Positions 5,301 to 54,968 of a stretch of DNA of 64,000 bases are shown here, piece by piece. A program made the position numbers and the translations under genes. How positions within the stretch are numbered: position 1 is the first letter of the stretch; each line of letters starts with the position of its first letter. A model generated the notes under the pieces. The model was given only the letters and a program-made list of their open reading frames with translations, ran no database searches and was not told the origin of the DNA. The DNA comes from Actinoallomurus spadix (GTDB taxonomy: Bacteria > Actinomycetota > Actinomycetes > Streptosporangiales > Streptosporangiaceae), in the NCBI RefSeq assembly GCF_024055725.1, contig NZ_JAMXMX010000028.1:1-64000 (forward strand), read 5' to 3'.

Positions 5301-5309
5301 CCGCGCGCC

Positions 5310-37566: not shown

Positions 37567-37936
37567 ACCACTCCTTATGCCTGCATGTGAATGTTTCGGT
37601 CAGGGGGTCATCGAAGCGCACCGGAAGACTCTCTCGCCGCGCTTTCGACCTGGTTCGAAAACCACCGCGCGCACCGAAAGGCCGATGCGGCATACCAGGC
37701 CGGCACCGCGGGGACGGCACGCCGGGGGAAGGCATTCGCCGACCGTTTCCCGGAGCGCGTCGAGGGCTCTCACGGAGCCCGCCCGGAGGATCCGCTCGGT
37801 GTGGGCGGTCGCGCGGCGACGCCCGGCCGGAGGAGCGCAGGTCTCGTGGACCGCCTCGGATGAGGTCTTGACGGGCCCGCGACAGCAGGGGCATCATCAC
37901 CCCCAATCTGAGAACGTTCTCACATTGGAGACCGCG
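37567..37936. other. Divergent intergenic region ahead of the fructoselysine operon
   Basis: About 370 bases between the beta-helix lipoprotein and the SIS deglycase. It holds a TTGACG box and a LacI-type palindrome close to the deglycase. The rest has no coding character that I trust. Confidence 0.5.
37868..37922 (+). promoter_or_regulatory. Promoter and LacI operator of the fructoselysine operon
   Basis: TTGACG (37868-37873) and CATCAT (37892-37897) form a -35/-10 pair with an 18-base spacer. TGAGAACGTTCTCA (37909-37922) is a perfect 14-bp palindrome just downstream, where a bound repressor would block initiation, and it ends 15 bases before the TTG start. It has the central CG and even symmetry of LacI operators, and a LacI gene closes this operon. 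Confidence 0.65.
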
Positions 37937-38968
37937 TTGAGCCTGGTGCGCCAGCCCGTCCGTCCGCTCGAACCGATTCCCGACACCCTCCGTGGTGATG
38001 TCGACGTCGCCGTGACGCCCGAGATCGAGGCCCAGGTGACCGCCTTCGTCGAGAAGGCCCTGAAACCGACGACCCGGGTCATCTACCTCGTAGGCTGCGG
38101 CGGCTCGCTGTTCATGTTCGGGGCGATGCGCTTCATCCTGGAACGCTCCCCCATCCCCGCGGTGGCGCTGAACGCGGACGAGTTCATGCTGCGCGGGCCG
38201 TCCGCCCTCGGTCCCGACTCGATCGTGATCGCCAGCAGCACGAACGGCGGCACCGCCGAGACGGCGCGGGCCGTACGGTTCGCCCGGGAGGCGGGCGCGC
38301 CGGTGCTGCTCGTCACCAAGGACCCGGAGAGCGTCGTCGCCAAGGAGGCGGCGGACATCGTCCTGCACCGCAGCGTCGAGGCCAAACAGGTTCTCCAGGG
38401 CCTCATCGCGTACGCCCTGCTCAGGGCGCAGGGCGTCGCCGAGGACTACGACGAGGCCGTGGCCGTCTTCCGCGGCTGCTCGGCGGCGTTCGAGACGTCC
38501 GTGCTGGAGCTGGACGATCACCTCCGCGACATCGCGGCGGCGTGCGTGGACGAGCCGTGCGTGTACGTCCTCGGCTCCGGCCCCCTGGAGGGCGCCGCCC
38601 AGACGTTCGCGGCCTGCTACCTGCAGGAGATGCAGACCAAGCACGCGGTCGCCACGGGCTCGGGCGAGTTCCTGCACGGCGCGTTCGAGGTCGTCGACGG
38701 CGAGGTGCCCGTGATCCTGCTGCTCGGCGAGGACTCCACGCGCCCGATGGGACAGCGGACGCTGACCTTCCTGGAGCGTTACAACCACCGCAACCACGTC
38801 ATCGACGGCGCGTCCCTGTCGCTGCCGGGCGTACCGGCGGACCTGCGCGCCACCGTCGGGGCGTTCGTCATGGCGAGCGCGGTCACGGCCCGGCTGGCGC
38901 AGCACTTCGAGGCGTTCTCGGGCCGCCCGCTGACCGACCGCCGCTACATGTGGAAGGTCGAGTACTGA
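37937..38968 (+). CDS. frlB: SIS-domain fructoselysine-6-phosphate deglycase (FrlB-like)
   Basis: 343 residues from a TTG with GGAGA 5 bases upstream. Two SIS domains; YLVGCGGSLFMFG and IASSTNGGTAETARAV in the first bind the sugar phosphate. The segment GSGEFLHGAFEVVDGEVPVILLLG and the ending DRRYMWKVEY closely follow the pattern of FrlB, which splits fructoselysine 6-phosphate into glucose 6-phosphate and lysine. The next gene, overlapping by one base, is a FrlD-like kinase, which supports the call. Alternative: deglycase for another fructosyl amino acid such as fructose-asparagine (FraB-like). Confidence 0.8.
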   Translation: MSLVRQPVRPLEPIPDTLRGDVDVAVTPEIEAQVTAFVEKALKPTTRVIYLVGCGGSLFMFGAMRFILERSPIPAVALNADEFMLRGPSALGPDSIVIASSTNGGTAETARAVRFAREAGAPVLLVTKDPESVVAKEAADIVLHRSVEAKQVLQGLIAYALLRAQGVAEDYDEAVAVFRGCSAAFETSVLELDDHLRDIAAACVDEPCVYVLGSGPLEGAAQTFAACYLQEMQTKHAVATGSGEFLHGAFEVVDGEVPVILLLGEDSTRPMGQRTLTFLERYNHRNHVIDGASLSLPGVPADLRATVGAFVMASAVTARLAQHFEAFSGRPLTDRRYMWKVEY

Positions 38969-39813
38969 TGCGGCTCGCCGCCGTCGGTGACAACATCATC
39001 GACTGCTATCCGGAGACCGGGCACATGTACCCCGGCGGCAACTGCGTGAACGTCGCCGTTCACGCGGCGCGCGCCGGCGCCCGGTCCTCCTACGTCGGTT
39101 CCGCCGGGCAGGACGAGCGGGGCGACCAGCTCGCCACCGCCCTGCGCGCCGAAGGGGTCGACGTCTCACGCCTGCGGCGGCCGGCCGGGCCGACCGGCTA
39201 CGCCACGGTGGTCAACGTCGGCGGCGAGCGCACCTTCGGGCCGTTCGACCGGGGCGTGGCGGGGTTCCGGCTCGACAAGGCGGACCTGGAGTTCATCGCG
39301 GGCCACGACCTGGCGCACTCCAGCTACTCGGCGCAGCTGGAGGACCAGTTGCCGGCCGTCGCGGAACGCGTGCCCCTGTCGTTCGACTTCGACGCGCACA
39401 CCGGCGACGGGTACGCCGCCGGGCTGCTCCCCCACGTCACGTACGCATTCTTCTCGGCCTCCCATCTCACCGAGACCGAGACCGGCGACCTGCTGCGCTG
39501 GGCCTGCGCCCAGGGCGCGCGCGTCGCCCTCGCCACCCGGGGAGCGGCGGGCGCGCAGCTCTTCGACGGCCACGAGCTCGTCGCGGAACCGGCCGCGCAG
39601 GTCGACGTGGTCGACACCCTGGGGGCCGGAGACACGTTCATCGCCCATATGCTGACCGGCCTGACCTCGGGTTTCGGGAAGCAGGAGACCCTGCGGCGGG
39701 CCTGCGCGCACGCCGCCCGGGTCTGTACGTCCCTCGGTGCCTTCGGGCACGCCAGACCGATCACCTCCGACCTGACACGGCACCTTTCCGCCACAGCAGC
39801 AAAGGAATCATGA
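38968..39813 (+). CDS. frlD: PfkB-family fructoselysine kinase (FrlD-like)
   Basis: 281 residues, ATG overlapping the deglycase TGA. The start VGDNIIDCYPETGHMYPGGNCVNVAV parallels FrlD, and the PfkB signature DTLGAGDTFIAHML gives the anion hole and catalytic Asp. Phosphorylates the imported fructosyl amino acid on C6, making the substrate of the preceding enzyme. Short for a PfkB kinase but normal for FrlD. Followed with overlap by the transport genes. Confidence 0.85.
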   Translation: MRLAAVGDNIIDCYPETGHMYPGGNCVNVAVHAARAGARSSYVGSAGQDERGDQLATALRAEGVDVSRLRRPAGPTGYATVVNVGGERTFGPFDRGVAGFRLDKADLEFIAGHDLAHSSYSAQLEDQLPAVAERVPLSFDFDAHTGDGYAAGLLPHVTYAFFSASHLTETETGDLLRWACAQGARVALATRGAAGAQLFDGHELVAEPAAQVDVVDTLGAGDTFIAHMLTGLTSGFGKQETLRRACAHAARVCTSLGAFGHARPITSDLTRHLSATAAKES

Positions 39814-40712
39814 TGACCGGTACCCGTGGTGGTCGCGCGAGCGCGGCCCTGGCCGCGCTCACGGCGTGCGCGGCGCTCGTCCTGTCCGCCTGCGGCGGCA
39901 ACGACGCGAAGAGCTCCTCAGGGGACGCCCCGGCCGAGCAGGCGGCGGACCCCGCCGTCGCCAAGCTCGTGCCGGCGAATCTCAAGAGCGCCAAGGTCGC
40001 CGTCTTCGGGGACTGGGCGCCGGAGGAGTACGTCGAGAACGGCCAGATCAAGGGCTGGAGCGTCGACCTGGCCAAGGCGATGGCGGCCAAGATGGGGATG
40101 ACCTTCACCTACCAGGCCACCGGCTTCGACGTCATCATCCCCGGCCTGAACAACGGCCGCTACGACGTGGCGGTCGCCTCCCTCGGCGTGACCCCCGACC
40201 GGCTGGCGAGCCTGGACTTCGTCCCCCTGCAGAAGGAGGGCACCGCCTTCGGCTGGAAGAAGGGCGCGAACCTCGACATCGCCAAGGTCGAGGACGTGTG
40301 CGGCAAGTCCGTCGCGGTGCTCACCGGGGCCTGGGAGTACAAGTACCTCACCGAGAACAACGCCAAGATCTGCGGCTCGAACCCGATGAGGATCGAGCAG
40401 TTCAAGGACCAGCCCTCCGCCGAACTGGCCGTCTCGTCGGGCCGCGTCCAGGTGGTCGCCGCCGGATCCGGCAAGCTGAAGTACAGCGCGAAGCAGAGCG
40501 GCCGGCTCGACACCTCCAACCTGCTCGTCAACGCCGTCTACAACGGCCTGGGCGTGAAGCAGGGCAGCCCTCTCGGGCCGGCGCTCAAGGCGGCCCTCCA
40601 GGCGGTCATCGCCGACGGAACGTACGCCAAGATCCGCTCCAAGTGGGGCGTCACCAGCCAGGGCGACCTCACGTCGGCCGTCCTCATCACCAAGGCCCAC
40701 CCCGAGGGCTGA
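39810..40712 (+). CDS. Polar amino-acid ABC transporter, substrate-binding lipoprotein
   Basis: 300 residues. Signal ending in lipobox LSAC (Cys28), a short Ser/Ala linker, then a family-3 solute-binding domain: DWAPEEYVENGQIKGWSVDLAKAMAAKMG, GRYDVAVASLGVTPDR and the late GSPLGPALKAALQAVIADGTYAKI. This family binds polar or basic amino acids and opines. In this operon a fructosyl-lysine ligand is the natural guess. The start overlaps the kinase stop. Confidence 0.9.
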   Translation: MMTGTRGGRASAALAALTACAALVLSACGGNDAKSSSGDAPAEQAADPAVAKLVPANLKSAKVAVFGDWAPEEYVENGQIKGWSVDLAKAMAAKMGMTFTYQATGFDVIIPGLNNGRYDVAVASLGVTPDRLASLDFVPLQKEGTAFGWKKGANLDIAKVEDVCGKSVAVLTGAWEYKYLTENNAKICGSNPMRIEQFKDQPSAELAVSSGRVQVVAAGSGKLKYSAKQSGRLDTSNLLVNAVYNGLGVKQGSPLGPALKAALQAVIADGTYAKIRSKWGVTSQGDLTSAVLITKAHPEG

Positions 40713-40746
40713 GCCGCCCGGGACCCCTCTGACCCCAAGGAGGTCG

Positions 40747-41691
40747 ATGATGACGATCGCGGGCAGCCCCGCCGACCAGGCCGCGCAGGACGGCGGGTTC
40801 CGCAGCGCCGAGGGCGTGCGGAAGGTGCCGCTCCGGCATCCGTGGTGGTGGGTCGGAGGGGCCCTGCTCATCCTGATCATCGGGATGTTCGCGCAGCTCC
40901 TCGTCACCAACCGGAACATGGACTGGTCGACGGTCCTGGAGTATCTCTTCAACGGTGAAATCCTCAAGGGGCTGCTGAGGACCCTGGAGCTGACCGTCCT
41001 GGCCATGGTGATCGGGCTGGCCCTCGGCATCCTGCTCGCGGTGATGCGGCTGTCGGCCAACCCGCTGTTCCGCGCGGTGAGCTGGCTGTGGCTGTGGTTC
41101 TTCCGCGGCGTCCCACCGCTGGTGCAGATGGTGTTCTGGTTCAACCTCGCGACGCTGCTCCCCAAGCTCAAGCTCGGCGTCCCGTACGGGCCCGTCTTCG
41201 CGTCGTGGGACACCAATACGGTCATCTCGGCGTTCACGGCGGCCATCCTCGGCCTCTCCCTGACCGAGAGCGCGTACGCCGCGGAGATGATCCGCGCCGG
41301 CATCCAGGCGGTGTCGAAGGGGCAGACCGAGGCGGCGCTGTCCATCGGGATGTCACGGTTCCAGGTGATGCGGCGGGTCGTGCTGCCCCAGGCCCTGCGC
41401 ATCGTCGTGCCGCCCATCGGCAACGACCTCATCTCGATGCTGAAGTTCACCTCGCTGGTGAGCGTCCTGGCCACCCCGGACCTGCTCTACAGCGCCCAGA
41501 TGATCTACTCCCGCAACTACAAGACCATCCCGCTGCTGCTCGTGGCCACCATCTGGTACCTCGTGCTGACCACGCTGCTCACCGTGGCCCAGCAGCAGGT
41601 CGAGAAGCGGCTGAAGACGACGCACCCCCAGACCGGCGCGATGAAGAACGTCAAGCGGCTGCGGTTCCTCCCCTCCTTCGGAAAGGCGTGA
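40747..41691 (+). CDS. Polar amino-acid ABC transporter permease
   Basis: 314 residues with about five membrane helices after an N-terminal cytoplasmic tail. The EAA loop [29 protein letters not shown] is intact, and [16 protein letters not shown] is the HisM/GlnP-type signature. A single permease gene implies a homodimer. AAGGAGG lies 4 bases before the ATG. Confidence 0.93.
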
Positions 41692-41698
41692 GCCGGTC

Positions 41699-42460
41699 AT
41701 GGTCCCTCTCCTGCGCGTCGAGAAGGTCAACAAGGCGTTCGGCACGAACCACGTGCTCCGCGACGTGTCGCTGGACGTCCACGCCGGCCAGGTCCAGTGC
41801 GTCATCGGCCCGTCCGGTTCCGGCAAGAGCACGCTGCTGCGCTGCGTCAACCGCCTCGAAGTCCCCGACAGCGGGCACGTCTACCTCGACGGGCAGCCGA
41901 TGGGCTACCGATGGAAGGGCGACACGCTCCGCGAGATGACCTCGTCCCAGCTCGCGGTGCAGCGCCGTCAGATGGGCATGGTCTTCCAGGGCTTCCACCT
42001 GTTCCCGCACCGCCGGGTCATCGAGAACGTCATCGAGGGCCCGGTCGTCGTGGGCGGCGTGGGCCGGGCGACCGCGCGCGAGCGGGCGATGGAGCTGCTG
42101 TCCAAGGTCGGCCTGGCCGACAAGGCCGAGGCGTACCCCGACTCGCTGTCGGGCGGGCAGCAGCAGCGCGTCGCGATCGCCCGTTCCCTGGCCATGCGGC
42201 CGAAGCTCATGCTGTTCGACGAGCCCACCTCCGCGCTCGACCCCGAACTCGTCGGTGACGTGCTCGCCGTCATGCGGGACCTCGCGGACGAGGGGATGAC
42301 GATGGTCGTGGTCACCCACGAGATGGGCTTCGCCCGCGACGTCGCCGACCACGTGGTCTTCATGGACGGCGGCTGCGTCGTGGAGGCCGGCCCGCCAGGA
42401 CACATATTCGGCGCCCCCGAGCACGAGCGCACCCGCTCGTTCCTGGCCCGGGTGCTCTGA
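41699..42460 (+). CDS. Polar amino-acid ABC transporter ATPase
   Basis: 253 residues. Walker [11 protein letters not shown]-loop [11 protein letters not shown], signature LSGGQQQR, Walker [13 protein letters not shown] and the switch His in VVTHEMGF are complete. Forms the importer with the preceding permease and lipoprotein; starts 7 bases after the permease stop. Confidence 0.95.
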
Positions 42461-42461
42461 C

Positions 42462-43442
42462 GTGGAGACCCTGATCCTGTCGGACGCGCAGATCCGGGCC
42501 GCCGTCGGCGCCGCCGACGTGGTGGACTCCCAGGACCGCGCCTTCGTCCTCGCCGCCGAGAACGACCGCGTACGGTCCGCGCAGACGCACTACACGACGT
42601 TCGCGCCGGACGGCATGGCGTTCGTGCACAGCGCCGCCGCCGACGGGGAGACTGGCGTCGTCTTCAAGACCGGCACACAGCACCCCCGCAACGGGGAGCG
42701 GGGGCTGCCGGCCGTGCACGCGACCGTGACCCTGCACGACCCGGACTCCGGCCGGACCGTCGCCGTGCTGAACGGCACGACGATCACCGCGCTGCGCACC
42801 GCGGGCGGCCTGGTCGCGGCGGCGCGGGCCCTCTCCATATCCCGGCCGCACACCGTCGGCGTGCTGGGCGCCGGCGCGCAGGCCACCGAGTTCGCCCTCC
42901 TGGCGCACGCGCTGCTCCCGGTCGACCGGTTCCTGATGTGGAGCCCCCGCCTGCGCACCCTCGGCCGGGCACACCTCGACCCGCGCCTGGCGGACCTCCC
43001 GGTCGAGGTCGCGGCCTCGCCCCGGGACCTGTGCGAACGCAGCCGTACGATCGCCGCCTGCACCCTCAGCCGTACGCCGGTGGTCGAGGGACCATGGCTC
43101 GGCGCGGGTACGACCGTCCTGACGATGGGCTCGTACGCCCCCGACCGGTGCGAGATCGACGTCGCCTGCTCCGCGAAGGCCGACCTGACCTTCACTGACC
43201 TGCCCGGGCAGGCCCTGCGCTCGACCGGGCCGGTCCTGGCGGCCGTACGGGCGGGCGTGCTGAAGGAGGAGGCGGTGCGCCCGCTCGCCGAGGTGCTGCG
43301 CGGTGATCATCCGGGACGCGCCGGCGAAGCGGAAACTGTAGTGTTCCACAGCAACGGCCTGGGGGTTCAGGACGCCGTGCTGGCGTGGCGCGCGTACGCC
43401 GCCGCCCGCGCGAACGGCATCGGCACCCGGGTCGACCTGTGA
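42462..43442 (+). CDS. Ornithine-cyclodeaminase/mu-crystallin-family reductase
   Basis: 326 residues from a GTG one base after the ATPase stop. Rossmann motif GVLGAGAQATEFAL; Lys69 (GVVFKTG) and Arg112 (ITALRTAG) sit exactly where the family has its carboxylate- and imine-contacting residues. True cyclodeaminases have a catalytic Asp in G-G-D-C-P-G-K; here the same place reads GSYAPDRCE, with Tyr225 instead. That favours a ketimine (delta1-piperideine-2-carboxylate) reductase or alanine-dehydrogenase-like activity over lysine cyclodeamination. In this cluster it could make L-pipecolate from the cyclic imine of lysine. Confidence 0.85.
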   Translation: METLILSDAQIRAAVGAADVVDSQDRAFVLAAENDRVRSAQTHYTTFAPDGMAFVHSAAADGETGVVFKTGTQHPRNGERGLPAVHATVTLHDPDSGRTVAVLNGTTITALRTAGGLVAAARALSISRPHTVGVLGAGAQATEFALLAHALLPVDRFLMWSPRLRTLGRAHLDPRLADLPVEVAASPRDLCERSRTIAACTLSRTPVVEGPWLGAGTTVLTMGSYAPDRCEIDVACSAKADLTFTDLPGQALRSTGPVLAAVRAGVLKEEAVRPLAEVLRGDHPGRAGEAETVVFHSNGLGVQDAVLAWRAYAAARANGIGTRVDL

Positions 43443-43478
43443 GCACGCCGCCTCCGCACGACACAGAAGGAACTCAAC

Positions 43479-44597
43479 GTGGCGACTGAACCCGGATCCC
43501 GGGAACGCCCCAAGCGGTCGCGGCCCAACATCAACGACGTCGCGAAACGCGCCGGCGTCTCACGGGCGACCGCCTCCCGCGTGCTCGGCGGGTACGGCTA
43601 CTCCAGCCAGGAGGTCATCGAGCGGGTGAATCAGGCGGTCCGCGAACTCGGCTACGAGCCGGACCGCATCGCCCGGACGATGCGCAGCGGCAAGTCCGAC
43701 GTCATCGGCTTCGTCTGCGCCGACATCTCCGACGCCTTCTTCTCCGCCGCCATGCGCGGCATCTGCGACGTGGCGCTGCGCGAGGGCTCCCAGGTCATCG
43801 TCATGAACACCGACGACCGGGGGAGCCAGGAACGGCAGGCCACGAAGGTCCTGCTGTCGCACAAGGTCGACGGCATCATCATCACGCCCGTCTCGGTGCG
43901 CGAGCACGGCCACATCGACGCCGTCACCCGCGCCGGAGTCCCCGTCGTCTCCCTCGACCGGCAGCTCAGCGACAGCGGCATCGACAGCGTCGTCGCCGAC
44001 AACGAGGCCGCGACGGCCGCCGCGATCGACCACCTCATCGGCCTCGGCCACCGCCGCGTCGCCTTCCTCGGCTCGGTCCAGCCCGAGGAGCCGCCCGCGC
44101 TGCGGATCGGCAAGGTACGGGCCAGCGTCGCCGGCCCGTCCCGGCCCTCCCACGACCGGGTACGGGGCTACCTGCGGGCGCTGTCCGCGGCGGGCCTCCA
44201 CCCCGACCGCGACCTCATCGCCCTCGTCCCGCACGACGAGCCGAAGCGCCGCATGCACGCCGTGCAGACGATGCTCGAACTCGAGGACCCGCCGACCGCG
44301 CTGTTCACCGCCGACAGCTACATGACCAAGAGCGCGTTCTCCCTGCTCTCCGAGCGGGGCATCGCCATCCCCGGCGACATCTCACTGCTCGGCTTCGACG
44401 ACCTGGAGTGGACCACCCTGGTCCGCCCCCGCATCTCGGTGGTGGTCCAGCCGTCGTACGAGATGGGCCGCGCCGCCGCCGAGCAGCTGTTCGCCCAGAT
44501 CGGCCGGAACGCCGCCCCGGACACCGACCCTCGCGGCCGCCGCACCGTCGTCCCCGCCCGCTTCCTGGAACGCGACAGCGTCGCCCCGTCCCCCTGA
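43479..44597 (+). CDS. LacI-family regulator of the fructoselysine operon
   Basis: 372 residues from GTG with AGAAGGAA upstream. HTH NINDVAKRAGVSRATASRVLGG and a sugar-binding-type sensor domain (DVIGFVCADISDAFFSAAMRGI ... LLGFDDLEWTTLVRPRISVV). Last gene of the operon it probably represses through the 37909-37922 palindrome; the ligand may be a fructosyl amino acid or its phosphate. A strong hairpin follows. Confidence 0.93.
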   Translation: MATEPGSRERPKRSRPNINDVAKRAGVSRATASRVLGGYGYSSQEVIERVNQAVRELGYEPDRIARTMRSGKSDVIGFVCADISDAFFSAAMRGICDVALREGSQVIVMNTDDRGSQERQATKVLLSHKVDGIIITPVSVREHGHIDAVTRAGVPVVSLDRQLSDSGIDSVVADNEAATAAAIDHLIGLGHRRVAFLGSVQPEEPPALRIGKVRASVAGPSRPSHDRVRGYLRALSAAGLHPDRDLIALVPHDEPKRRMHAVQTMLELEDPPTALFTADSYMTKSAFSLLSERGIAIPGDISLLGFDDLEWTTLVRPRISVVVQPSYEMGRAAAEQLFAQIGRNAAPDTDPRGRRTVVPARFLERDSVAPSP

Positions 44598-44642
44598 GAC
44601 CCGCCCCATCCGTGCCGCCGGCGTGGTCATGGTGCGGCCGTG

Positions 44643-44673
44643 GTCCGGCCCGCCGGGTCGCGGCGGGCCGGAC
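44643..44673. terminator. Bidirectional hairpin between LacI and ALDH7 genes
   Basis: GTCCGGCCCGCC-gggtcgc-GGCGGGCCGGAC, perfect 12-bp arms, between two converging genes (stops at 44597 and 44681). It would end both operons. Confidence 0.75.
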
Positions 44674-44680
44674 GAGCTCG

Positions 44681-46213: not shown

Positions 46214-46242
46214 CAGGGTTCTCCCTCGGGTAGTCGGTCATC

Positions 46243-47397
46243 TCAGACGATATTCAGCTCGGGGCGTGCCCCGGCCAGGTCGAAACGGCGGGCGTTGAAG
46301 CCGCTGACGTCGACGAACGGCGTACGGCCGAGGTAGAGGTCGCGGACGACCTCCCCGACGGCCGGGCTCATCAGGAAGCCGTGGCCGGAGAAGCCGGTGG
46401 CGTAGATGAACCGGTCGACGCCCTCCGCGGTCCCGATCAGCGCGTTGTGGTCGGGCGTCACCTCGTACAGGCCGGCCCAGCCGGTGCCGAACCCGACGTC
46501 CAGCAGGCCGGGCGCGCGGCGGGCCATGGCCTCGCCCAGGCGGGGCAGCCAGGCGTCGGACCGGTCCAGCTTGAAACCGGGCGTCTCCTCGGGGTCGGAC
46601 ATGCCGATCAGGAGTCCGCGGCCTTCCCGGTGGAAGTAGAACGAGGTGGCGAAGTCGATCGTGAACGCCGTCGGCGGCAGGTCGGGGATCGGCTCGGTGA
46701 CCAGGATCTGCCGGCGCAGCGGGGTGACCGGCAGGTCGACGCCGGCCCATGCGCCGACCTCCCGCGACCAGGCGCCGGCCGCGCAGATCACGGTGTCGGT
46801 CTCGATGCGGCCGCCCTCGGTCTCCACCGCGACGATGCGGCCGCCGGCCGTCTCGACGCCGGTCGCGGCACAGTTCGGGAGCAGCGTCGCGCCGTGCCGG
46901 CGGGCCGCGCCCGCGTAGCCGAGGACCACGGACTCGGGCGTGCAGTGGCCGTCGGTGGGCGAGTACGCCGCGGCGAGCAGCCCGTCGGTGTCGATCAGCG
47001 GGGACAGCTCCGCCGCCTCACGCGGGGTGATGATCCGGCTGGGCACGCCGAGGTCGTTCTGGACGGCGACGTTCCGCTCGAACTCCGCGACGGCCTCGGG
47101 CGTGTCGAGCAGGAAGAGGTACCCGGGACGGTGCAGGTCGATCTCCTGCCCGAACCGCTCGGCGAACGTCTCGAACGTCTGCAGGCTGCGGATGGCGAGC
47201 TCGATGTTGACGCGGTCGGAGAACTGCGCGCGCACTCCCCCGGCGGCCTTGGAGGTCGAACCGGAGCCGAGCGGCCCCTGGTCGATCAGGACCACGTCGG
47301 GCACGCCCGCCGCGGCCAGCTCGTACGCCGCGGCGACGCCCACGCAACCGCCACCGATGATGACCGCCGACGCGCGGGCGGGCAGCTGACGACTCAT
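46243..47397 (-). CDS. FAD-dependent amine oxidoreductase (DAO family)
   Basis: 384 residues. N-terminal FAD-binding VIIGGGCVGVAAAYEL, GSTSKAAGGVRAQFSD, and the C-terminal ATGFSGHGFLMSPAVGE ending seen in sarcosine-oxidase-beta-like enzymes. These oxidise secondary or cyclic amines. Next to an ALDH7 gene, L-pipecolate oxidation to delta1-piperideine-6-carboxylate (AmaA role) is the best guess. 12 bases from the amino-acid dehydrogenase stop, 29 from the ALDH start: one operon. Confidence 0.88.
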   Translation of the reverse strand: MSRQLPARASAVIIGGGCVGVAAAYELAAAGVPDVVLIDQGPLGSGSTSKAAGGVRAQFSDRVNIELAIRSLQTFETFAERFGQEIDLHRPGYLFLLDTPEAVAEFERNVAVQNDLGVPSRIITPREAAELSPLIDTDGLLAAAYSPTDGHCTPESVVLGYAGAARRHGATLLPNCAATGVETAGGRIVAVETEGGRIETDTVICAAGAWSREVGAWAGVDLPVTPLRRQILVTEPIPDLPPTAFTIDFATSFYFHREGRGLLIGMSDPEETPGFKLDRSDAWLPRLGEAMARRAPGLLDVGFGTGWAGLYEVTPDHNALIGTAEGVDRFIYATGFSGHGFLMSPAVGEVVRDLYLGRTPFVDVSGFNARRFDLAGARPELNIV

Positions 47398-47409
47398 CGA
47401 GGATTCCTC

Positions 47410-48558
47410 TCAGACGTGCTCGGGCACGCGCCGGCGCAGGACCATGGCCTCGCGGACGCGGCTCTGGGCCAGCGCGTACGCCGCCTCGTGGGGGGTGGTC
47501 TCGGCGCGGCGCGACTCCTGGAGCACGGCCACCGCGTTGGCGCGCAGCTTGGTGGAGATCATGGAGAAGACGTCGCCGGGGTCCACCTGGAACGGCGAGT
47601 AGCGGGCGTCCATCGAGTGCGCGGCGGCGACGATGCCGCCGGCGTTGGCGATGAAGTCGGGCACCACCGCGACTCCCCGCTTGTGGAGGATCGCGCGGGC
47701 GTCGGGGGTCGCCGGGAGGTTCGCGCCCTCGACCACCAGCTTCGCGGTGGTCGCTGCGGCGACGCCGGCGTCGATGACGTCCTCGCGGGCGGCGGGCACG
47801 AGGATGTCGGTCTCCACCGACAGGGCACGCTCGGGCGGCGCCGGCGGGCCGTACTCACGGACGCAGTCGTCGCCGAGCTCCGCGCTGAGCGCCAGGAGCC
47901 GGTCCACGTCGAGGCCGTCGGGGTCGTGCGCGCAGCCCGTCACCGTGGACGCGGCCACGATGACGGCGCCGAGCTCGGCCAGCCTGCGGACGGCGGCCCG
48001 GCCCACCGCGCCGAGTCCCTGGACGGCGACGCGGGCGCCGCGCAGCTCCAGGCCGAGCTCGGCGGCGGCCGCGTCGGCCGCCTCGGCGACGCCGTACCCG
48101 GTGACGCCGAGCTGGTCGTACGGGAAGCCGCCGAGGGCGCCGGGCAGGCCGACGGCCGCGCCGCGGTCGCCGAGCTCGTCGAGCAGGATCGCGGCGTCGT
48201 TCTCGGTCAAGCCCATGTCGAGGCCGAACACGTACTCCCTCGGCACCTCGTTCGCCAGCGCCCGGGCGAACGCGCGGAGGATCTCCTCCTTGTCCGGCGC
48301 GGCGGGATCGGCGACGATCCCGGCCTTGGCGCCGCCGTGGAACAGGTCGACGGCGGCCCATTTCCAGGTCATCGTGCGGGCGAGCCGCGCGATCTGCCCG
48401 ACGGTCACGCCGGGGCTCATCCGGGTGCCGCCCTTGCCCATGCCGCGCGCGGTGTTGTCCAGGACGAGGACACCCCGCATCCCGGTCCGGCGGTCGGACA
48501 CACAGACGACCTTCTCGGGTCCCCACTCGTCCATGAGTGCGAAGACGTCATCGCTCAC
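47410..48558 (-). CDS. Glu/Leu/Phe/Val-type amino-acid dehydrogenase
   Basis: 382 residues from a GTG at 48558 (an in-frame GTG 15 bases earlier is possible). Catalytic Lys in FHGGAKAGIVADP (usual form GGAKGG, here one Gly is Ala), GLDMGLTEND with the second catalytic Asp, and a Rossmann domain VAVQGLGAVGRAAVRRLAELGA. Oxidatively deaminates an amino acid with NAD(P). In this operon 2-aminoadipate, a one-carbon-longer glutamate, giving 2-oxoadipate is the attractive substrate; lysine alpha-deamination is another possibility. Confidence 0.88.
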   Translation of the reverse strand: MSDDVFALMDEWGPEKVVCVSDRRTGMRGVLVLDNTARGMGKGGTRMSPGVTVGQIARLARTMTWKWAAVDLFHGGAKAGIVADPAAPDKEEILRAFARALANEVPREYVFGLDMGLTENDAAILLDELGDRGAAVGLPGALGGFPYDQLGVTGYGVAEAADAAAAELGLELRGARVAVQGLGAVGRAAVRRLAELGAVIVAASTVTGCAHDPDGLDVDRLLALSAELGDDCVREYGPPAPPERALSVETDILVPAAREDVIDAGVAAATTAKLVVEGANLPATPDARAILHKRGVAVVPDFIANAGGIVAAAHSMDARYSPFQVDPGDVFSMISTKLRANAVAVLQESRRAETTPHEAAYALAQSRVREAMVLRRRVPEHV

Positions 48559-48659
48559 GACAGCGCTGCCCACCTCTCGGTTCGCTCGGTGGGTCCAGCA
48601 TCGGGGAGTGCGCGTCACCGGAGGAAGCGGCCGAGCCCCGCCATCTCTGGGCATGGCCG

Positions 48660-48670
48660 AAGAACTTCTT
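48660..48670. promoter_or_regulatory. AAGAA-c-TTCTT palindrome ahead of the amino-acid dehydrogenase
   Basis: An 11-bp inverted repeat in the 142-base gap upstream of the dehydrogenase start. Symmetric boxes like this can be LysR or GntR half-sites; a LysR gene lies next door. Confidence 0.3.
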
Positions 48671-48700
48671 ATGCTGCTCACGCAGCTCACGCTGCGCCGA

Positions 48701-49630
48701 TCACGCTGCGGCGACGGCGCCGGGCAGGTCGCCCGCGAGCCGGGCCGCGGCCTGGCGCAGGGTGTCCACCGCGCCGGTCACCGCCGGGTTCCCGGCGGCC
48801 GGGCGGTGCGCGGCGAGGACGTGCCTGCGGGCGGTCACGCCGTCGAGCCGGGTCGCGACGACGCCCTCGCCGGGCAGGTGCGCGAGGGCCGGCACGCGCG
48901 CGACGCCGAGGCCCGACCGCACGAAGCCGTGGATCACGCCGTAGTCGTTGCTGCGGTAGTCCAGCTGGGGTTCGAAGCCCGCCTCGGCGCAGAGCCGGCG
49001 CAGGCAGGACGCCCCGGCGGTGCCCTCGCGGGCGGCCACCCACGTCTCGTGTGCCAGGTCGCCGAGCGCGACCGGCCCGGCGATGGCGAGCGGGTGGCGT
49101 TCGGGGAGCAGGAGCAGCAGCTCCTCCGCCAGCAGCGGGGTCTCCTCCAGGTCGCCCGGCCAGGCCCGGGGCACCAGGTCGTACCGGTAGACGAGCGCCA
49201 GGTCGAGCTCCCCGGCCCGGACGAGCGGGATCAGCTCGTCCGGTTCGCCCTCGTCGAGGAGGATCTCCACCGACGGGTACGCACGGGCGTAGGAGGCCAG
49301 GCCGATGGGCAAGAGCCGCTGGCTGGCCGTGGGGAAGCTGCCGAGCCGGAGCCGCCCGATCCGCCCCTCCGCCATGCCGCGGGCGTCCTCTTCGAGGGCG
49401 TCCAGCGCGGACAGCGCGTCGGCGGCGCGCCGTACGAGGTAGAGCGCCGCCGGGGTGGGCCTGATCGCCTGGGCGCCGCGCTCGAACAGCGGCATCCGCA
49501 CCGCGCGCTCCAGCGCCGCGACCTGCTGGGAGACCGCCGAGGCGGTGTAGCCGAGCCGCCGCGCCGCGTCGGCGAACGACCCGGCGTCCACGACGGCGGT
49601 CAGTGTCCTCAGGTGAACCGGGTTGAGCAT
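48701..49630 (-). CDS. LysR-family regulator
   Basis: 309 residues. N-terminal HTH LRTLTAVVDAGSFADAARRLGYTASAVSQQVAALER and the two-lobed effector domain (RLRLGSFPTASQRLLPIGL...). Located inside the catabolic set, 7 bases after the D-2-hydroxyglutarate dehydrogenase stop, so it is co-transcribed with it. It may be a positive regulator responding to an intermediate. Start ATG at 49630. Confidence 0.93.
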   Translation of the reverse strand: MLNPVHLRTLTAVVDAGSFADAARRLGYTASAVSQQVAALERAVRMPLFERGAQAIRPTPAALYLVRRAADALSALDALEEDARGMAEGRIGRLRLGSFPTASQRLLPIGLASYARAYPSVEILLDEGEPDELIPLVRAGELDLALVYRYDLVPRAWPGDLEETPLLAEELLLLLPERHPLAIAGPVALGDLAHETWVAAREGTAGASCLRRLCAEAGFEPQLDYRSNDYGVIHGFVRSGLGVARVPALAHLPGEGVVATRLDGVTARRHVLAAHRPAAGNPAVTGAVDTLRQAAARLAGDLPGAVAAA

Positions 49631-49637
49631 TCGCGGG

Positions 49638-52472
49638 TCACGGGTCGAGGCGCTCGGCGAGGAACTGGGCCAGGTGGACGCCCTGGCGGGGCGACAGGTC
49701 GGCGATCTGGGTGCGGCAGGAGAACCCGTCGGCGAGGACGACGGTCTCCGCGTCCGCGTCGCGCAGCGCGGGCAGCAGCTGGTGCTCGGCGATGGCGACG
49801 GACACATCGTAGTGCCCCTTCTCCACGCCGAAGTTGCCCGCCAGGCCGCAGCAGCCGCCCAGTCGCCGGACGTCCGCGCCCGCCTCCTTGAGCATCTCGG
49901 CGTCCTTGCCCCAGCCCATGACGGCGTGGTGGTGGCAGTGCGGCTGGGCCACCACGGTCGTGCCGTCGAACGACGGCGGCCGCCAGTCCGGGGTGTCGGC
50001 GAGCAGCTCGGCGAGCGTGCGGGTCCGCTCGGCGACCGGCGCCGCGACCTCCTCGTCCAGCAGCTCCAGCGCGTCCGAGCGCAGGACGGCGGTGCAGGAC
50101 GGCTCCATGCCCACGATCGGGACGCCCGCCTCCGTGGCCTCGGCGAGCTCGGCGACCGTACGGCCGAGGATCTTCTTGGCGGCGTCGAGCTGGCCGGTGG
50201 AGATCCAGGTCAGCGCGCAGCACTGGCGGTTCTCGCTGATCTGCGGGCGGTAGCCCGCGGCCTCCAGCACCGCCACCGTCGCCCGGCCGACCTCGGGCGC
50301 GAAGTGGTCGGTGAAGGTGTCGACGAAGAGCATGACCGGCCGGCCCTCCGCCGGGCGCTCGTCGCGGGTCCGCTCGAACCACTCGCGGAACGTCCGCGGC
50401 GCGAACTCCGGAAGGTTCCGCCGCCGGTCCACGCCGGCGACCGCCAGCGCCGCCCGCCGTAGCCCCGGCACCCGCAGGGCCGCGTTGACGAGGCGCGGCA
50501 TGCGGCCGGCGAGCCGTGCCCACAGCGGCAGCCGGCCCAGCGAGTAGTGCGCGGCCGGGCGCAGCCGCCCGCGGTAGCTCTGGTGGAGCACCTCGGACTT
50601 GTACGCGGCCATGTCGATACCGGTCGGGCAGTCCGACGCGCAGCCCTTGCAGGACAGGCACAGGTCGAGGGCCTCGTGGACCTCGGGCGAGCGCCACCCG
50701 CCGGAGACGAGGGAGCCGTTCACCATCTCCTGCAGGACGCGGGCCCGCCCTCGGGTCGAGTCCTTCTCCTCGCGGGTCGCGAGGTAGGACGGGCACATCA
50801 CGCCGCCGGACGCGGTGTTGTCGGCGCGGCACTTGCCCACGCCGGTGCAGCGGTGCACCGACTGATTGAAGTCGCCGCCGTCGTGGCGGTACGCCAGCGC
50901 GAGGTTCTTCCGCACCGGCCGGGCGGCCGGGACCCGCAGGTCGGCGTCGACCGGCCGGGGCCGCACCAGCACGCCGGGGTTGAGCACGTCATTCGGGTCG
51001 AAGATGCCCTTGACCTGCTCGAACAGGCCGATCGCCGACTCGGAGTACATCCGCGGCAGCAGCTCGCTGCGGGCCCGGCCGTCGCCGTGCTCGCCGGACA
51101 GCGAGCCGCCGTACCCGGCGACCAGCGTGGCCGCGGACTCCAGGAAGCCGCGGAACCGCTCCGGCCCGCCGGGGCGGTCCAGCGGCCAGTCGATGCGGAT
51201 GTGCAGGCAGCCGTCGCCGAAGTGCCCGTACGGCAGGCCGGTCACGTCGAACTCGCCCATCAGCGCCTCGAAGTCGCGCAGGTAGCGGCCCAGCATCGCC
51301 GGGGGCACGGCGGCGTCCTCCCAGCCGCCGTGGGCGGGCAGCCCGGCGGGGCTGCGGCCGGCCAGGCCCGCGCCGTCCTCGCGGATGCGCCACAGCGACG
51401 CCGCCCGCGCCGGGTCGGTGACGATCAGCGCGTCCTCGCAGCCGGCGGCGACCCGCCGGGCCCGGTCGAGGACCTCGGTCTCGTCCTCCCCGGCGACCTC
51501 GACGAACAGCCACGCGGCCCCGCTCGGCAGCGGCGGCACCGCGTCCGGGCCCTTCCGCGTGCGCACGACGTCGACGATGCGCGCGTCGATGCCCTCGCAG
51601 GCGGTGGGCAGGTGCTCCAGCAGGGCGGGCGCGGCGTCCCCCGCCGCGGCGATGTCCTCGTAGCCGAGCACGATGAGGACCCGGTGTGCCGGGTCGGTGA
51701 CCAGGTTCACGGTCGCCTCGGTCAGCACCGCGAGGGTGCCCTCGCTGCCGACCAGCAGGCGGACGACGTCGAACCGGCGTTCCGGCAGCAGGTGCTCCAG
51801 CGCGTATCCGGACACCTGGCGGCCGAACCGGGCGAACTCCGTCCTGATCGTGGCGAGGTTCGCGGCGGCGAGCTCGTGCAGCGCGGTCACCTCGGCGGGG
51901 CCGCCGGACGCCGGCGCGCCCAGCGGGGACGTCAGGTCCAGCGCGGTGCCGTTGCCGGTGACGGCCTTGAGGCCGGCCACGTTGTCGCTGGTACGGCCAT
52001 AGCCGAGGGTCCGGGACCCGCACGCGTTGTTCCCGATCATGCCGCCGATCGTGCAGCGCGTGTGCGTGGAGGGATCGGGGCCGAACCTGAGCCCGTGCGG
52101 GGCCGCCGCCCGCTGCAGTTCGGCCTGGACGACGCCGGGCTGGACCACGGCGGTCCGGGTCCCGGGGTCGACGCTCAGGACCTTCCGCATGTGGCGGCTG
52201 AAGTCGAGGACGAGGCCGGGGCCGACCGCGTTGCCGGCGACGGACGTGCCGGCGCCGCGCGCGGTGAGCGGGATCTCGTGGCGCGCGCACAGCTCGACCG
52301 CGGTGGCCACGTCGTCGGCGGACCGGGGCCGCGCCACGAGGAGCGGCGGCACACGGTACAGGGAGGCGTCGGAGGAGAACAACGACCGCGACATCGAGTC
52401 GGTGAGCAGGTCGGTGACTCCGCGTCGGCGCAGGTCGTTGGCGAGGTCGGCAGCCCGGTCCATGAGTAGCAT
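49638..52472 (-). CDS. YdiJ-type D-2-hydroxyglutarate dehydrogenase (FAD + 4Fe-4S)
   Basis: 944 residues. FAD-binding type-4 domain (ARGAGTSVAGNAVG, PSTHTRCTIGGMIGNNACG), FAD-oxidase C-terminal domain with the GEHGDGRARSE motif, then ferredoxin-type clusters (CTGVGKC, CLSCKGCASDCP) and a CCG-type cysteine domain (RQCCAL, LGGCCGLAGNFG). Large FAD/Fe-S fusions of this build include YdiJ, which oxidises D-2-hydroxyglutarate to 2-oxoglutarate. The divergent neighbour encodes HglS, which makes that compound. An ATG 9 bases later is an alternative start. Confidence 0.9.
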   Translation of the reverse strand: MLLMDRAADLANDLRRRGVTDLLTDSMSRSLFSSDASLYRVPPLLVARPRSADDVATAVELCARHEIPLTARGAGTSVAGNAVGPGLVLDFSRHMRKVLSVDPGTRTAVVQPGVVQAELQRAAAPHGLRFGPDPSTHTRCTIGGMIGNNACGSRTLGYGRTSDNVAGLKAVTGNGTALDLTSPLGAPASGGPAEVTALHELAAANLATIRTEFARFGRQVSGYALEHLLPERRFDVVRLLVGSEGTLAVLTEATVNLVTDPAHRVLIVLGYEDIAAAGDAAPALLEHLPTACEGIDARIVDVVRTRKGPDAVPPLPSGAAWLFVEVAGEDETEVLDRARRVAAGCEDALIVTDPARAASLWRIREDGAGLAGRSPAGLPAHGGWEDAAVPPAMLGRYLRDFEALMGEFDVTGLPYGHFGDGCLHIRIDWPLDRPGGPERFRGFLESAATLVAGYGGSLSGEHGDGRARSELLPRMYSESAIGLFEQVKGIFDPNDVLNPGVLVRPRPVDADLRVPAARPVRKNLALAYRHDGGDFNQSVHRCTGVGKCRADNTASGGVMCPSYLATREEKDSTRGRARVLQEMVNGSLVSGGWRSPEVHEALDLCLSCKGCASDCPTGIDMAAYKSEVLHQSYRGRLRPAAHYSLGRLPLWARLAGRMPRLVNAALRVPGLRRAALAVAGVDRRRNLPEFAPRTFREWFERTRDERPAEGRPVMLFVDTFTDHFAPEVGRATVAVLEAAGYRPQISENRQCCALTWISTGQLDAAKKILGRTVAELAEATEAGVPIVGMEPSCTAVLRSDALELLDEEVAAPVAERTRTLAELLADTPDWRPPSFDGTTVVAQPHCHHHAVMGWGKDAEMLKEAGADVRRLGGCCGLAGNFGVEKGHYDVSVAIAEHQLLPALRDADAETVVLADGFSCRTQIADLSPRQGVHLAQFLAERLDP

Positions 52473-52481
52473 GTTACATGC
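52469..52481. promoter_or_regulatory. Palindrome at the D-2-hydroxyglutarate dehydrogenase start, candidate GntR site
   Basis: GCATGTTACATGC is a perfect inverted repeat round one base and overlaps the start codon of the dehydrogenase gene. GntR proteins of the FadR/FCD type bind ATGT-N-ACAT-like boxes. A related GTGGCATGCTAC overlaps the GntR gene's own start (54727-54739). Confidence 0.55.
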
Positions 52482-52558
52482 GACCCCTGGCGCTCCGCCC
52501 ACATTTTCCGTACCCTTCCGTGACACAAGCGACGAATCGGCAGCAAGGAGAGGGGCAG

Positions 52559-53977
52559 ATGGTCGACTCGACCGCACTCCGGGCGGCTTTCGCCCGACGG
52601 CTGTCAGCGATGTACGGCACGGAGGTGCCCGCGTACAACACGCTGGTCGACGTCGCGCAGGAGGTCAACCGCGAGGTGCTGGAGCGGATGGGCGCCGACG
52701 CCGAACGGCTCGGTTCCATCGACCGTGTCACCGCCGAGCGACACGGCGCGATCCGCGTCGGCACGCCCGCCGAGATGGCGCAGGTCGCCCGGATCTTCGG
52801 CGCGATGGGCATGTACCCCGTCGGCTACTACGACCTGCGCGAGGCCGCGAGCAGTTCGGTGCCGGTCGTCTCTACGGCCTTCCGCCCCGTCGACGAGGCG
52901 GAGCTGGCCGCCAACCCCTTCCGGGTCTTCACCTCGATGCTGGTGGCGGGCGACCGGCGGTTCTTCGACGAGGACCTGGAGCGCAGGCTCGGCGAGTTCC
53001 TCGGCGCGCGCCGGCTGTTCCCGCCGCGGCTGCTGGAGCTGGCCGACCGGGCCGAGGCCGAGGGCGGCCTGGACGACCAGGCGGCCGAGGAGTTCCTCAC
53101 CCTCGCGACGCGGGCGTTCGAGCTGTCCCGCGAGCCGGTCTCCCGCAGCTGGTACACCGAACTGGAGCGGATCTCCTCGGTCGCCGCCGACATCGGCGGG
53201 GTGCCGAGCACGCACGTCAACCACCTGACCCCGCGCGTCCTCGACATCGACGCCCTCTACACGCGGATGAGCGAGCGCGGCATCGCCATGATCGACGCCA
53301 TCCAGGGGCCGCCGCGCTGGAACGGTCCCGACCTGCTGCTGCGCCAGACCTCCTTCCGCGCACTGGCCGAGCCCCGGGTCTTCCGGGAGGACGACGGCCG
53401 CGTCGTGGAGGACGACCTGCGCGTACGGTTCGGCGAGGTCGAGGCCCGCGGCATCGCCGTGACACCGGCGGGCCGCGCGCTGTACGACGAACTGACCGCG
53501 GAACTGGACGCCGCGCTCGCCGGGCAGCGGGTCACCGCCGAGGAGCGCAACACCGTCGCGGCCGGGCTCTGGGAGGGCCGGGTGCCGTCCACCGAGGCCG
53601 AACTCGTGACCGGCGACCTCGCCTACTTCACCTTCCACACCACCGGCCACGGCACGGGCACGCGGCCCGCGTCCGCTCCCCCCGCCGACCTCGCCGCGCT
53701 CCTGGCGGAGGGCCGGGTCACGGCGCGGCCGATCGTCTACGAGGACTTCCTGCCCCGCTCCGCCGCCGGGATCTTCCAGTCGAACCTGACCTCCGACGGA
53801 TCCAAGGACGTCACCCGCGCCGGCGCGGAGTTCGGCCCCGAGGCCCTGGCCGGGGTGCTCGGCCGAACGCTGCACGACCCGTACGAGCTGTACGCCTCGA
53901 TCCGCGCCGCGTCGCTGGCCCGCGTGCGCGACGAGCTCGGCCTCGGCCGGGAGATCACCCTGCCCGCGGCCCGCTAG
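52559..53977 (+). CDS. hglS: 2-oxoadipate dioxygenase/decarboxylase HglS (DUF1338)
   Basis: 472 residues. DUF1338 markers: AERHGAIRVG with a His-x3-Arg (H62, R66), STHVNHLTPRVLDI with histidines 219 and 222, and YEDFLPRSAAGIFQSNL near the C-terminus. HglS/YdcJ enzymes convert 2-oxoadipate to D-2-hydroxyglutarate in lysine catabolism using Fe(II) and oxygen. The start ATG at 52559 follows AAGGAGAGGGG. Divergent from the D-2-hydroxyglutarate dehydrogenase that would use its product, and convergent with a GntR gene. Confidence 0.93.
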   Translation: MVDSTALRAAFARRLSAMYGTEVPAYNTLVDVAQEVNREVLERMGADAERLGSIDRVTAERHGAIRVGTPAEMAQVARIFGAMGMYPVGYYDLREAASSSVPVVSTAFRPVDEAELAANPFRVFTSMLVAGDRRFFDEDLERRLGEFLGARRLFPPRLLELADRAEAEGGLDDQAAEEFLTLATRAFELSREPVSRSWYTELERISSVAADIGGVPSTHVNHLTPRVLDIDALYTRMSERGIAMIDAIQGPPRWNGPDLLLRQTSFRALAEPRVFREDDGRVVEDDLRVRFGEVEARGIAVTPAGRALYDELTAELDAALAGQRVTAEERNTVAAGLWEGRVPSTEAELVTGDLAYFTFHTTGHGTGTRPASAPPADLAALLAEGRVTARPIVYEDFLPRSAAGIFQSNLTSDGSKDVTRAGAEFGPEALAGVLGRTLHDPYELYASIRAASLARVRDELGLGREITLPAAR

Positions 53978-53980
53978 GAC

Positions 53981-54727
53981 CTAACCCTCGGCGACGATGG
54001 ACGCCCACAGGGCGTCCACGTCGACCGGCTCGCCCTGGGCCCGCGCGGCCTGCCTCGCCAGGATCAGGCCGGTGTTGGTCAGGTGCGCCCGCATCGCCCG
54101 TACGGCGCCCTCGGCGTCCGCGGCGGCGACCGCGGCCACGATCGGCTCGTGCTCCTCGTGCACCTGCCGGAGGGTGCGGGACCGGTCGTCGGTCGACGTG
54201 CCGAGGATGCGCATGGTGTCACGCAGGCCGCCGACGATCGTCCGCGCCCGGCCGTTGCCCGCCGCGACCAGGATGTGGTCGTGCAGGGCCTGGTCCAGGT
54301 GGAAGAAGAGCGTCTCATCGCCGGCCTCGACCGCCGCCGCCATCTGCTCCATGGTCTCCCGCAGAGCCTCGCCCAGCTCGGTGGACTCCTCGTCGGCCAC
54401 GCGCCGTACGGCGGGGAGCTCCAGCGCCAGCCGCACGCCGAAGATCTCGACGATCTCCCTCGGGTGCGGCAACACGACGCGGAAGCCCCGGTTGCGCTCG
54501 ACCTGCACCAGGCCCGCGTCCGCGAGCCGCAGCAGCGCCTCACGCACCGGGCTGCGGGACACGTTGAGCTGCTCGGCCACCTGGTAGACCGAGTAGAGGC
54601 GGCCCGGGACCATCACGCCCGTGTGCACCGCCCGCCGCACCTCCGAGATCACCTGCTCGGCCAGCGACCGCGACGGGTGCGTCAGCGGCTGCAGCTTCAG
54701 CTCGGTGTCCTGGCGGGTGGGCGGCAT
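53981..54727 (-). CDS. GntR-family (FCD) regulator
   Basis: 248 residues. Winged helix (LAEQVISEVRRAVHTGVMVPGRLYSVYQVAEQLNVSRSPVREALLRLADAGLVQ) and an FCD effector domain with His/Asp metal ligands (DQALHDHILVAAGN, HEEHEPIVAAV). FCD regulators sense carboxylic acids; here 2-oxoadipate or 2-hydroxyglutarate is a reasonable ligand for the flanking HglS/dehydrogenase genes. No SD is visible; the ATG overlaps a GCATG-type box, so autoregulation is likely. Confidence 0.92.
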   Translation of the reverse strand: MPPTRQDTELKLQPLTHPSRSLAEQVISEVRRAVHTGVMVPGRLYSVYQVAEQLNVSRSPVREALLRLADAGLVQVERNRGFRVVLPHPREIVEIFGVRLALELPAVRRVADEESTELGEALRETMEQMAAAVEAGDETLFFHLDQALHDHILVAAGNGRARTIVGGLRDTMRILGTSTDDRSRTLRQVHEEHEPIVAAVAAADAEGAVRAMRAHLTNTGLILARQAARAQGEPVDVDALWASIVAEG

Positions 54728-54933: not shown

Positions 54934-54968
54934 GTAAGATCCACACACAAGGCGAACGAGGAGAACAC

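Follow-up and report, generated by a model that had tools for sequence, protein, structure and literature searches.

The 64,000-nucleotide stretch of Actinoallomurus spadix DNA analyzed here (contig NZ_JAMXMX010000028.1, positions 1 to 64,000; hereafter the window) carries, between 37.9 and 54.7 kb, two adjoining gene sets that are best explained, with a probability of about 0.6, as two regulated catabolic units working in series: one that would salvage a glycated amino acid and one that would convert pipecolate to 2-oxoglutarate. The first, operon A, is a run of seven plus-strand genes (37937–44597, gaps of −1 to 37 bp) for a SIS-domain protein, a PfkB kinase, the substrate-binding protein (SBP), permease, and ATPase of an ABC importer, an OCD/mu-crystallin family protein, and a LacI repressor. 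The second, block B (44681–54727), contains a run of five minus-strand genes, in the order flavin adenine dinucleotide (FAD)/iron–sulfur (Fe-S) dehydrogenase, LysR, Glu/Leu/Phe/Val-type dehydrogenase (GDH), FAD amine oxidase (DAO), and ALDH7, with gaps of 7, 142, 12, and 29 bp under the start codons chosen here. HglS is divergent from this run, and a GntR gene at the far end is convergent to HglS. The source genome comprises 8.0 Mb in 71 contigs, and the G+C content of the window is 67%–78% in 2-kb steps. Open-frame and family scans recovered every gene type that an initial annotation of this region had named. The same annotation proposed a continuous route from fructosyl-lysine to 2-oxoglutarate, which is partly supported: the gene content is real, the part from pipecolate downward is well supported, and the coupling to Amadori salvage is supported by linkage, whereas glycated lysine as the input is unproven, the importer leaning toward α-glycation.

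In the scheme that we favor, unit A, repressed by LacI, would import an Amadori compound, more likely an α-glycated one, whose sugar part would be phosphorylated and then split off as glucose 6-phosphate, leaving an unmodified amino acid from the lysine/pipecolate family. The OCD protein would reduce the cyclic ketimine Δ1-piperideine-2-carboxylate to L-pipecolate. In unit B, mainly repressed by GntR, DAO would oxidize L-pipecolate to Δ1-piperideine-6-carboxylate, ALDH7 would convert this to L-2-aminoadipate, and GDH, a dehydrogenase in a transaminase's place, would yield 2-oxoadipate. HglS would then form D-2-hydroxyglutarate, and the FAD/Fe-S dehydrogenase would return it as 2-oxoglutarate. 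We infer every substrate in this scheme, as well as the feeding of B by A and the conversion of lysine to the ketimine.

The passage from pipecolate to 2-oxoglutarate in block B is well supported, two of its enzymes by family tests and the others by gene neighborhood. ALDH7 (44681–46213, minus strand) scores 799 bits against the piperideine-6-carboxylate dehydrogenase model NF050084 (cut-off 730), and its best match in PDB is the semialdehyde dehydrogenase Pcd (6rtr, 780 bits). HglS (52559–53977, plus strand), a 2-oxoadipate dioxygenase/decarboxylase, reaches 714 bits against NF050083 (cut-off 600) and falls short of a second HglS model, NF049974 (407 vs. 550 bits). Aligned to 6w1g, it keeps the HHE metal triad and Arg74 within ERHGAIRVGT, HVNHLTPR, and RFGEVEARG; the assignment of the two histidines and the glutamate to the triad is our assumption. 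Ser403 is also kept, and an arginine occupies the Val402 position. Both the triad and the substrate Arg74 are named in the available passages of PMC7286885. At the level of family membership, these tests show the identities of ALDH7 and HglS. The FAD/Fe-S dehydrogenase (49638–52463, minus strand) scores 439 bits against the YdiJ model NF049975, below its cut-off of 1350, and is predicted to be a D-2-hydroxyglutarate dehydrogenase from its position beside HglS. Indeed, among 17 HglS loci besides the window, an ALDH gene lies near in 13, an FAD/Fe-S gene in 11, a LysR gene in nine, a GDH gene in six, and a DAO gene in five.

The remaining two enzymes are placed by the company that their genes keep. 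These surveys used draws of genomes from the family, genus, and class, with fetched stretches of at most 21 kb, some ending at contig ends; three genomes and two extra places in genome G100, at 39%–44% identity, were left out before counting. DAO (46243–47397, minus strand; PF01266), the predicted L-pipecolate oxidase, best matches 1y56_B (E 2.4e-68), which is deposited as a sarcosine oxidase and which we take to be part of an L-proline dehydrogenase. A DAO relative (E 1e-110 or better) was present in 43 of 394 genomes drawn from the class; for the neighborhood survey, 20 of 41 other genomes were taken, spread over genera, with five of the 20 from one genus (g85). Among 33 DAO loci besides the window, an ALDH gene is near in 19 (12 at ≥60% identity), HglS in eight, OCD in nine, GDH in four, Amadori genes in four, and a saccharopine-dehydrogenase-like pair in three. 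Across 150 genomes of the family, DAO (≥54% identity) and HglS were both present in six, HglS only in nine, DAO only in four, and neither in 131 (Fisher p 6e-5, or 4e-4 without the source genome); because related genomes are not independent, these p-values, like those for the neighborhood counts, are too small. An amadoriase (fructosyl amino acid oxidase) role for DAO was rejected, since no SIS or kinase gene reaches threshold at 29 of the 33 other loci examined, counting among the 29 locus L039, which has a SIS remnant.

GDH (47410–48558, minus strand; PF00208) is predicted to act on L-2-aminoadipate. The glutamate dehydrogenase-type lysine of its KGG[TM]R motif, presumably K89 of C. symbiosum, which we understand to bind the side-chain carboxylate in glutamate dehydrogenases, is kept in all eight sequences compared; alanine stands at the S380 position. 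The gene is found in several genera and recurs with HglS, which uses 2-oxoadipate, or with a 2-oxoacid dehydrogenase E1, which may use it, and this recurrence supports aminoadipate as the GDH substrate. Locus L045 holds GDH, DAO, and E1. Locus L107, from another family, brings together ALDH7 (70%), DAO (61%), GDH (66%), E1, an acyl-CoA dehydrogenase, OCD, and a polar amino acid importer; no Amadori genes were found in it. Thus, conserved neighborhood supports the assignment of DAO, GDH, and the FAD/Fe-S gene to the pipecolate route. Another common source of piperideine-6-carboxylate is LAT, and it was rejected for the source genome, where the best match scores 137 bits against 521.

The OCD protein (42462–43442, plus strand; PF02423) looks like a ketimine reductase. 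Its best solved relative, 6t3e, is a pyrroline-2-carboxylate reductase, and it has a tyrosine where the deaminating relative 1omo, an alanine dehydrogenase, has an aspartate that is also missing from 6t3e and 2i99. Lysine and ornithine cyclodeaminases carry a catalytic aspartate in a GxD motif. Our alignment, which contained no cyclodeaminase sequence, places phenylalanine at this position, in the same GS[FY] context, in OCD genes near DAO at four loci (L043, L045, L107, and L120), and a fifth (L044) has GSF. The absent aspartate therefore favors a ketimine reductase and disfavors a lysine cyclodeaminase, an assignment that would have closed the missing step of the route and that we rejected on this ground. 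The protein scores below the cut-offs of PRK06141 (126 vs. 322 bits) and LhpI (73 vs. 400 bits). OCD genes lie near DAO in five of 29 loci that have no intact operon A, where 0.18 would be expected from a density based on the source genome's OCD only, and conserved neighborhood thus supports a tie between OCD-type genes and DAO. In three Nonomuraea loci (L059, L060, and L089), the OCD contains a variable low-complexity repeat insert that is absent from the window and from L088. At L044, within a DAO–HglS–ALDH7 locus, a D-amino-acid-dehydrogenase-like gene (positions 4103–6321; 201 bits, cut-off 383) is divergent from OCD and is a candidate source of the cyclic ketimine. At L104, a 185-residue frame (positions 9693–10250) with an OCD-like stretch (40% over 62 residues, no Pfam match) lies upstream of DAO and a saccharopine-dehydrogenase-like pair and is preceded by a GTP cyclohydrolase II gene.

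The probable role of operon A is the uptake of sugar-bound amino acids and the removal of their sugar. Its first gene (37937–38968; PF01380) encodes a putative sugar-amine 6-phosphate deglycase whose best PDB match is 3eua (E 3.8e-47), which we take to be B. subtilis FrlB. The protein is 31% identical to 3eua (174 bits), 34% to 3fkj (161 bits), and 25% to E. coli FrlB (82 bits). Motifs of the GEYFHGPFE type are important in fructosamine 6-phosphate deglycases, and its GEFLHGAFE aligns to such a motif in both 3eua and 3fkj (E 3.8e-47 and 1.9e-42). Since 11 other actinobacterial SIS proteins also score higher with 3eua than with E. coli FrlB, this comparison is weak evidence on the substrate; in a tree of SIS proteins, the forks are open, E. 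coli FrlB sits on a long branch, and the substrate class is not placed. The kinase (38968–39813) scores 196 bits against the fructoselysine 6-kinase model NF007321 (cut-off 247), and the deglycase scores 71 bits against the E. coli-type FrlB model NF008481 (cut-off 430). The family names of the initial annotation hold for ALDH7 and HglS, which exceed their cut-offs, and elsewhere should read FrlB-like, FrlD-like, and YdiJ-like, since these three proteins fall below the corresponding cut-offs.

The importer, of the polar amino acid type, comprises an SBP (39813–40712; PF00497), a permease (40750–41691; TIGR01726, above cut-off), and an ATPase (41699–42460; PF00005; best NCBIfam match TcyN-type, 320 bits, below cut-off), the last being 56% identical to the ATPase of the lysine locus L107; like the deglycase and kinase genes, all are on the plus strand. 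In such SBPs, an acidic residue, aspartate, pairs with the α-ammonium group of the ligand. The window's SBP keeps the arginine of the T-P-[DE]-R motif and has a glycine in place of the acidic residue, with no acidic neighbor. Relatives have Asp at this position in three cases and Glu or Asp in the two domains of a fourth, and the glycine is shared by all five operon A copies compared. Its presence suggests a ligand with no free α-ammonium group, which fits α-glycation, and the substrate of operon A therefore leans toward an α- rather than ε-glycated compound. The available part of PMC12632257 indicates that B. subtilis FrlB and FrlD prefer α-glycated amino acids to ε-glycated lysine. No family or residue test run here identifies lysine as the amino acid released; lysine or pipecolate in that role is unproven and rests only on the links to OCD and DAO.

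These links are conserved. The contig scan found close SIS relatives (85%–86%) in at least two Nonomuraea genomes among the matches listed; Nonomuraea belongs to the same family, Streptosporangiaceae, as the window genome. Operon A occurs with its gene order kept in four of 54 genomes of the genus, two of them those from the contig scan. DAO (85%–87%) is convergent to LacI in all four, and a LysR relative at 75%–76% identity adjoins it in three (L059, in genome G176; L060, in genome G182; and L089). Each of the five intact copies seen has OCD within the operon, and in the window ALDH7 stands between operon A and DAO. At L060, from N. roseoviolacea, ∼1.25 kb separates OCD from LacI, far more than in the other copies. 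By comparison, none of 11 other SIS loci examined, out of 21 such places, has OCD or DAO in its fetched stretch, and four window proteins encoded outside the block have no match in 11 fetched stretches of the relatives described here. Genomes G141 and G100 have the order GntR, HglS, FAD/Fe-S, DAO, ALDH7 at 81%–89% identity. In G141, a TnpB gene is flanked by remnants of both end genes of operon A: 84 residues of LacI, next to ALDH7, and 50 residues of SIS, which still has its operator. The operon therefore once adjoined block B there as well. The linkage of operon A with DAO thus appears real and conserved at the level of gene order, and, together with the linkage elsewhere of ketimine-reductase-type OCD genes with DAO, it supports the proposal that operon A feeds block B.

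The control regions suggest that the block is divided into at least two regulons. Operon A is preceded by a putative promoter (TTGACG, 18 bp, CATCAT; 37868–37897, plus strand), the only σ70-like match in 37300–55200, with 0.4 expected by chance. In an alignment of five upstream regions, both hexamers are kept in the four relatives, and the order is TTGACG-18-CATCAT, TGAGANCGNTCTCA, GGAG, and start codon, which is ATG in the relatives and TTG at 37937 in the window, most likely the first codon of the SIS gene. The initial annotation had begun the operon at 37868; the TTG there belongs to the −35 box of the conserved promoter, so that no gene starts at this position and the start moves to near 37937. 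Downstream of the promoter lies a perfect palindrome, TGAGAACGTTCTCA (37909–37922, plus strand), which is likely the site of the LacI-family repressor (43479–44597, plus strand; PF00356 and PF13377). Its count in the window is not above chance (two matches at ≤3 mismatches, 37909 and 63081, with 0.91 expected), and its weight therefore comes from conservation: TGAGATCGATCTCA occupies the same position in L059, L060, L088, and L089 and is also found at the SIS remnant of L039. For the GntR-family regulator (53981–54727, minus strand; NCBIfam GntR-type models, below cut-off), putative operators lie between the divergent HglS and FAD/Fe-S genes (GTAGCATGTTAC, 52466–52477) and ahead of the GntR gene itself (54729–54740). 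The former recurs in three block B relatives (L039, L040, and L090), each time with no more than one mismatch, and the latter recurs ahead of GntR with one mismatch in L039 and L040. Together, the two sites give four matches to the palindrome GTAGCATGYYAC over the two strands, where 0.24 would be expected and none of 100 shuffles reached four, and this palindrome is likely the GntR site. Two distinct conserved palindromes probably mean two repressor circuits. The LysR regulator (48701–49630, minus strand) matches NCBIfam LysR models, those shown all being below cut-off.

Several observations weigh against units A and B as a single working series. In the two Nonomuraea genomes examined for this, relatives of HglS, ALDH7, and the FAD/Fe-S dehydrogenase (54%–69% identical to those of the window, with 75% for one part of HglS) are either >1 Mb away from operon A or on a separate contig, and DAO is absent from the fetched stretch that holds them, so that operon A is not generally linked to the route as a whole. 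All four Nonomuraea carriers have LAT. A genome of the window's own genus, G091, has HglS, FAD/Fe-S, and ALDH7 with neither DAO nor operon A. No LacI operator (≤3 mismatches) precedes block B, the window's two matches being at 37909 and 63081, and LacI control of that block was rejected. DAO scores 50 bits against the AmaA pipecolate-oxidase model NF050086 (cut-off 600); 14 of the 33 DAO loci have no ALDH in the fetched stretch, and seven have only one of 35%–40% identity. Finally, no lysine α-deaminase was recognized among the block's genes, and the α-deamination of lysine, which the initial annotation had listed as the only step with no certain enzyme, remains a gap. At the G091 locus (L090), the three genes are 90%–92% identical to those of the window, and neither DAO (at E 1e-60) nor LAT gave a match.

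Other readings distribute this evidence differently. Operon A might be a general salvage system for many α-glycated amino acids, its position beside lysine genes being only a loose advantage and OCD and DAO taking cyclic imino acids from elsewhere. The preference of the deglycase for 3eua over E. coli FrlB (with 3fkj about as close), the α-preference of the Bacillus enzymes (PMC12632257, in part), the lost acidic residue of the importer, and the two separate operators all agree with such a system, which we nonetheless consider rather unlikely: OCD sits inside every intact copy, DAO converges on all four Nonomuraea copies, and neither gene accompanies the other SIS loci examined. A different reading takes DAO as an oxidase of saccharopine or another Nε-substituted lysine, yielding piperideine-6-carboxylate so that block B would bypass pipecolate. 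A saccharopine-dehydrogenase-like pair near DAO in three of five g85 loci examined speaks for it and against our scheme; the other two g85 loci hold HglS and ALDH7. The recurrence of ketimine-reductase-type OCD genes with DAO where operon A is not intact makes pipecolate the natural shared intermediate and leaves this reading improbable. Least probable of all, in our estimate, is an operon for a cyclic imino acid in glycated form, for example fructosyl-pipecolate or fructosyl-proline, from which DAO would oxidize the released imino acid directly. The missing deamination step would then disappear, the SBP would need no acidic partner for an α-ammonium group, and the likeness of DAO to 1y56_B, presumably part of an L-proline dehydrogenase, would be accounted for; OCD is then left with no obvious role.

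Beyond two units in series, a more specific version of our scheme can be entertained tentatively, at odds clearly below even: an aerobic line devoted to salvaging α-glycated lysine or pipecolate, in which a single LacI regulon comprises the importer, kinase, deglycase, and ketimine reductase and is joined through a conserved FAD oxidase to a pipecolate–HglS line with a hitherto undescribed L-2-aminoadipate dehydrogenase. If this holds, specificity of an Amadori system for a pipecolate-forming amino acid would have been shown for the first time. The broader scheme, if true, would mean that soil actinobacteria can take a Maillard product into the citric acid cycle aerobically by a nearly complete route, and it would supply candidates for a DAO-type pipecolate oxidase, a glutamate-dehydrogenase-family aminoadipate dehydrogenase, and an OCD-type ketimine reductase; for these three steps, NCBIfam models all stayed below their cut-offs here. 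The DAO/GDH/ALDH7/HglS neighborhood may also serve as a marker set for annotating actinobacterial lysine breakdown. Elsewhere in the window, genes for a 2-oxoacid dehydrogenase E1 α (TIGR03181, above cut-off) and a β-like subunit, with a divergent Lrp/AsnC regulator, lie to the left of the block (33510–36254), and 56636–60229 encodes a large α-1,3-glucanase-like protein with F5/8 type C and ASH-type domains.

It is useful to contrast the locus with known systems. Our literature search, judged by titles and abstract openings, found no study of an actinobacterial deglycase or of fructoselysine plus pipecolate, and no cluster joining Amadori salvage to the pipecolate–HglS route; nor do the passages available from PMC4697335, PMC7286885, PMC8262997, PMC12462448, and PMC12632257 show this combination. 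The initial annotation likewise knew of no such described cluster; Intestinimonas AF211 is a partial precedent. In the available part of PMC4697335, this organism has a fructoselysine cluster (AF_00949–00955) for Amadori salvage and a lysine operon (AF_00976–00982) for lysine breakdown, ∼20 locus tags apart in the same genome, and its fructoselysine genes are up to 25-fold higher on lysine. Unlike the window, it converts lysine to butyrate, with different enzymes and two separate clusters. The B. subtilis frlBONMD–frlP system (PMC12632257, in part) shares with operon A a kinase, a SIS deglycase, and an ABC importer, and the best-scoring solved deglycase for the window is 3eua; in contrast, the window's importer is of the polar amino acid family, its regulator is LacI rather than FrlR, OCD lies within the operon, and DAO is near. 

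The D-lysine route of Pseudomonas putida proceeds through AmaD, DpkA, AmaA, AmaB, HglS, and YdiJ. Block B would pass through the same intermediates from pipecolate to 2-oxoglutarate, with HglS and ALDH7 as family members by test, whereas its ketimine reductase is of the OCD type, its DAO is no AmaA by model, GDH replaces a transaminase, its dehydrogenase falls below the YdiJ cut-off, and an Amadori operon is attached. In mammals, pipecolate is handled by CRYM, PIPOX, and ALDH7A1, the same order of mu-crystallin-type ketimine reductase, FAD pipecolate oxidase, and ALDH7 that we propose here; the mammalian pathway ends in 2-oxoadipate dehydrogenase, and that of the window would end in HglS.

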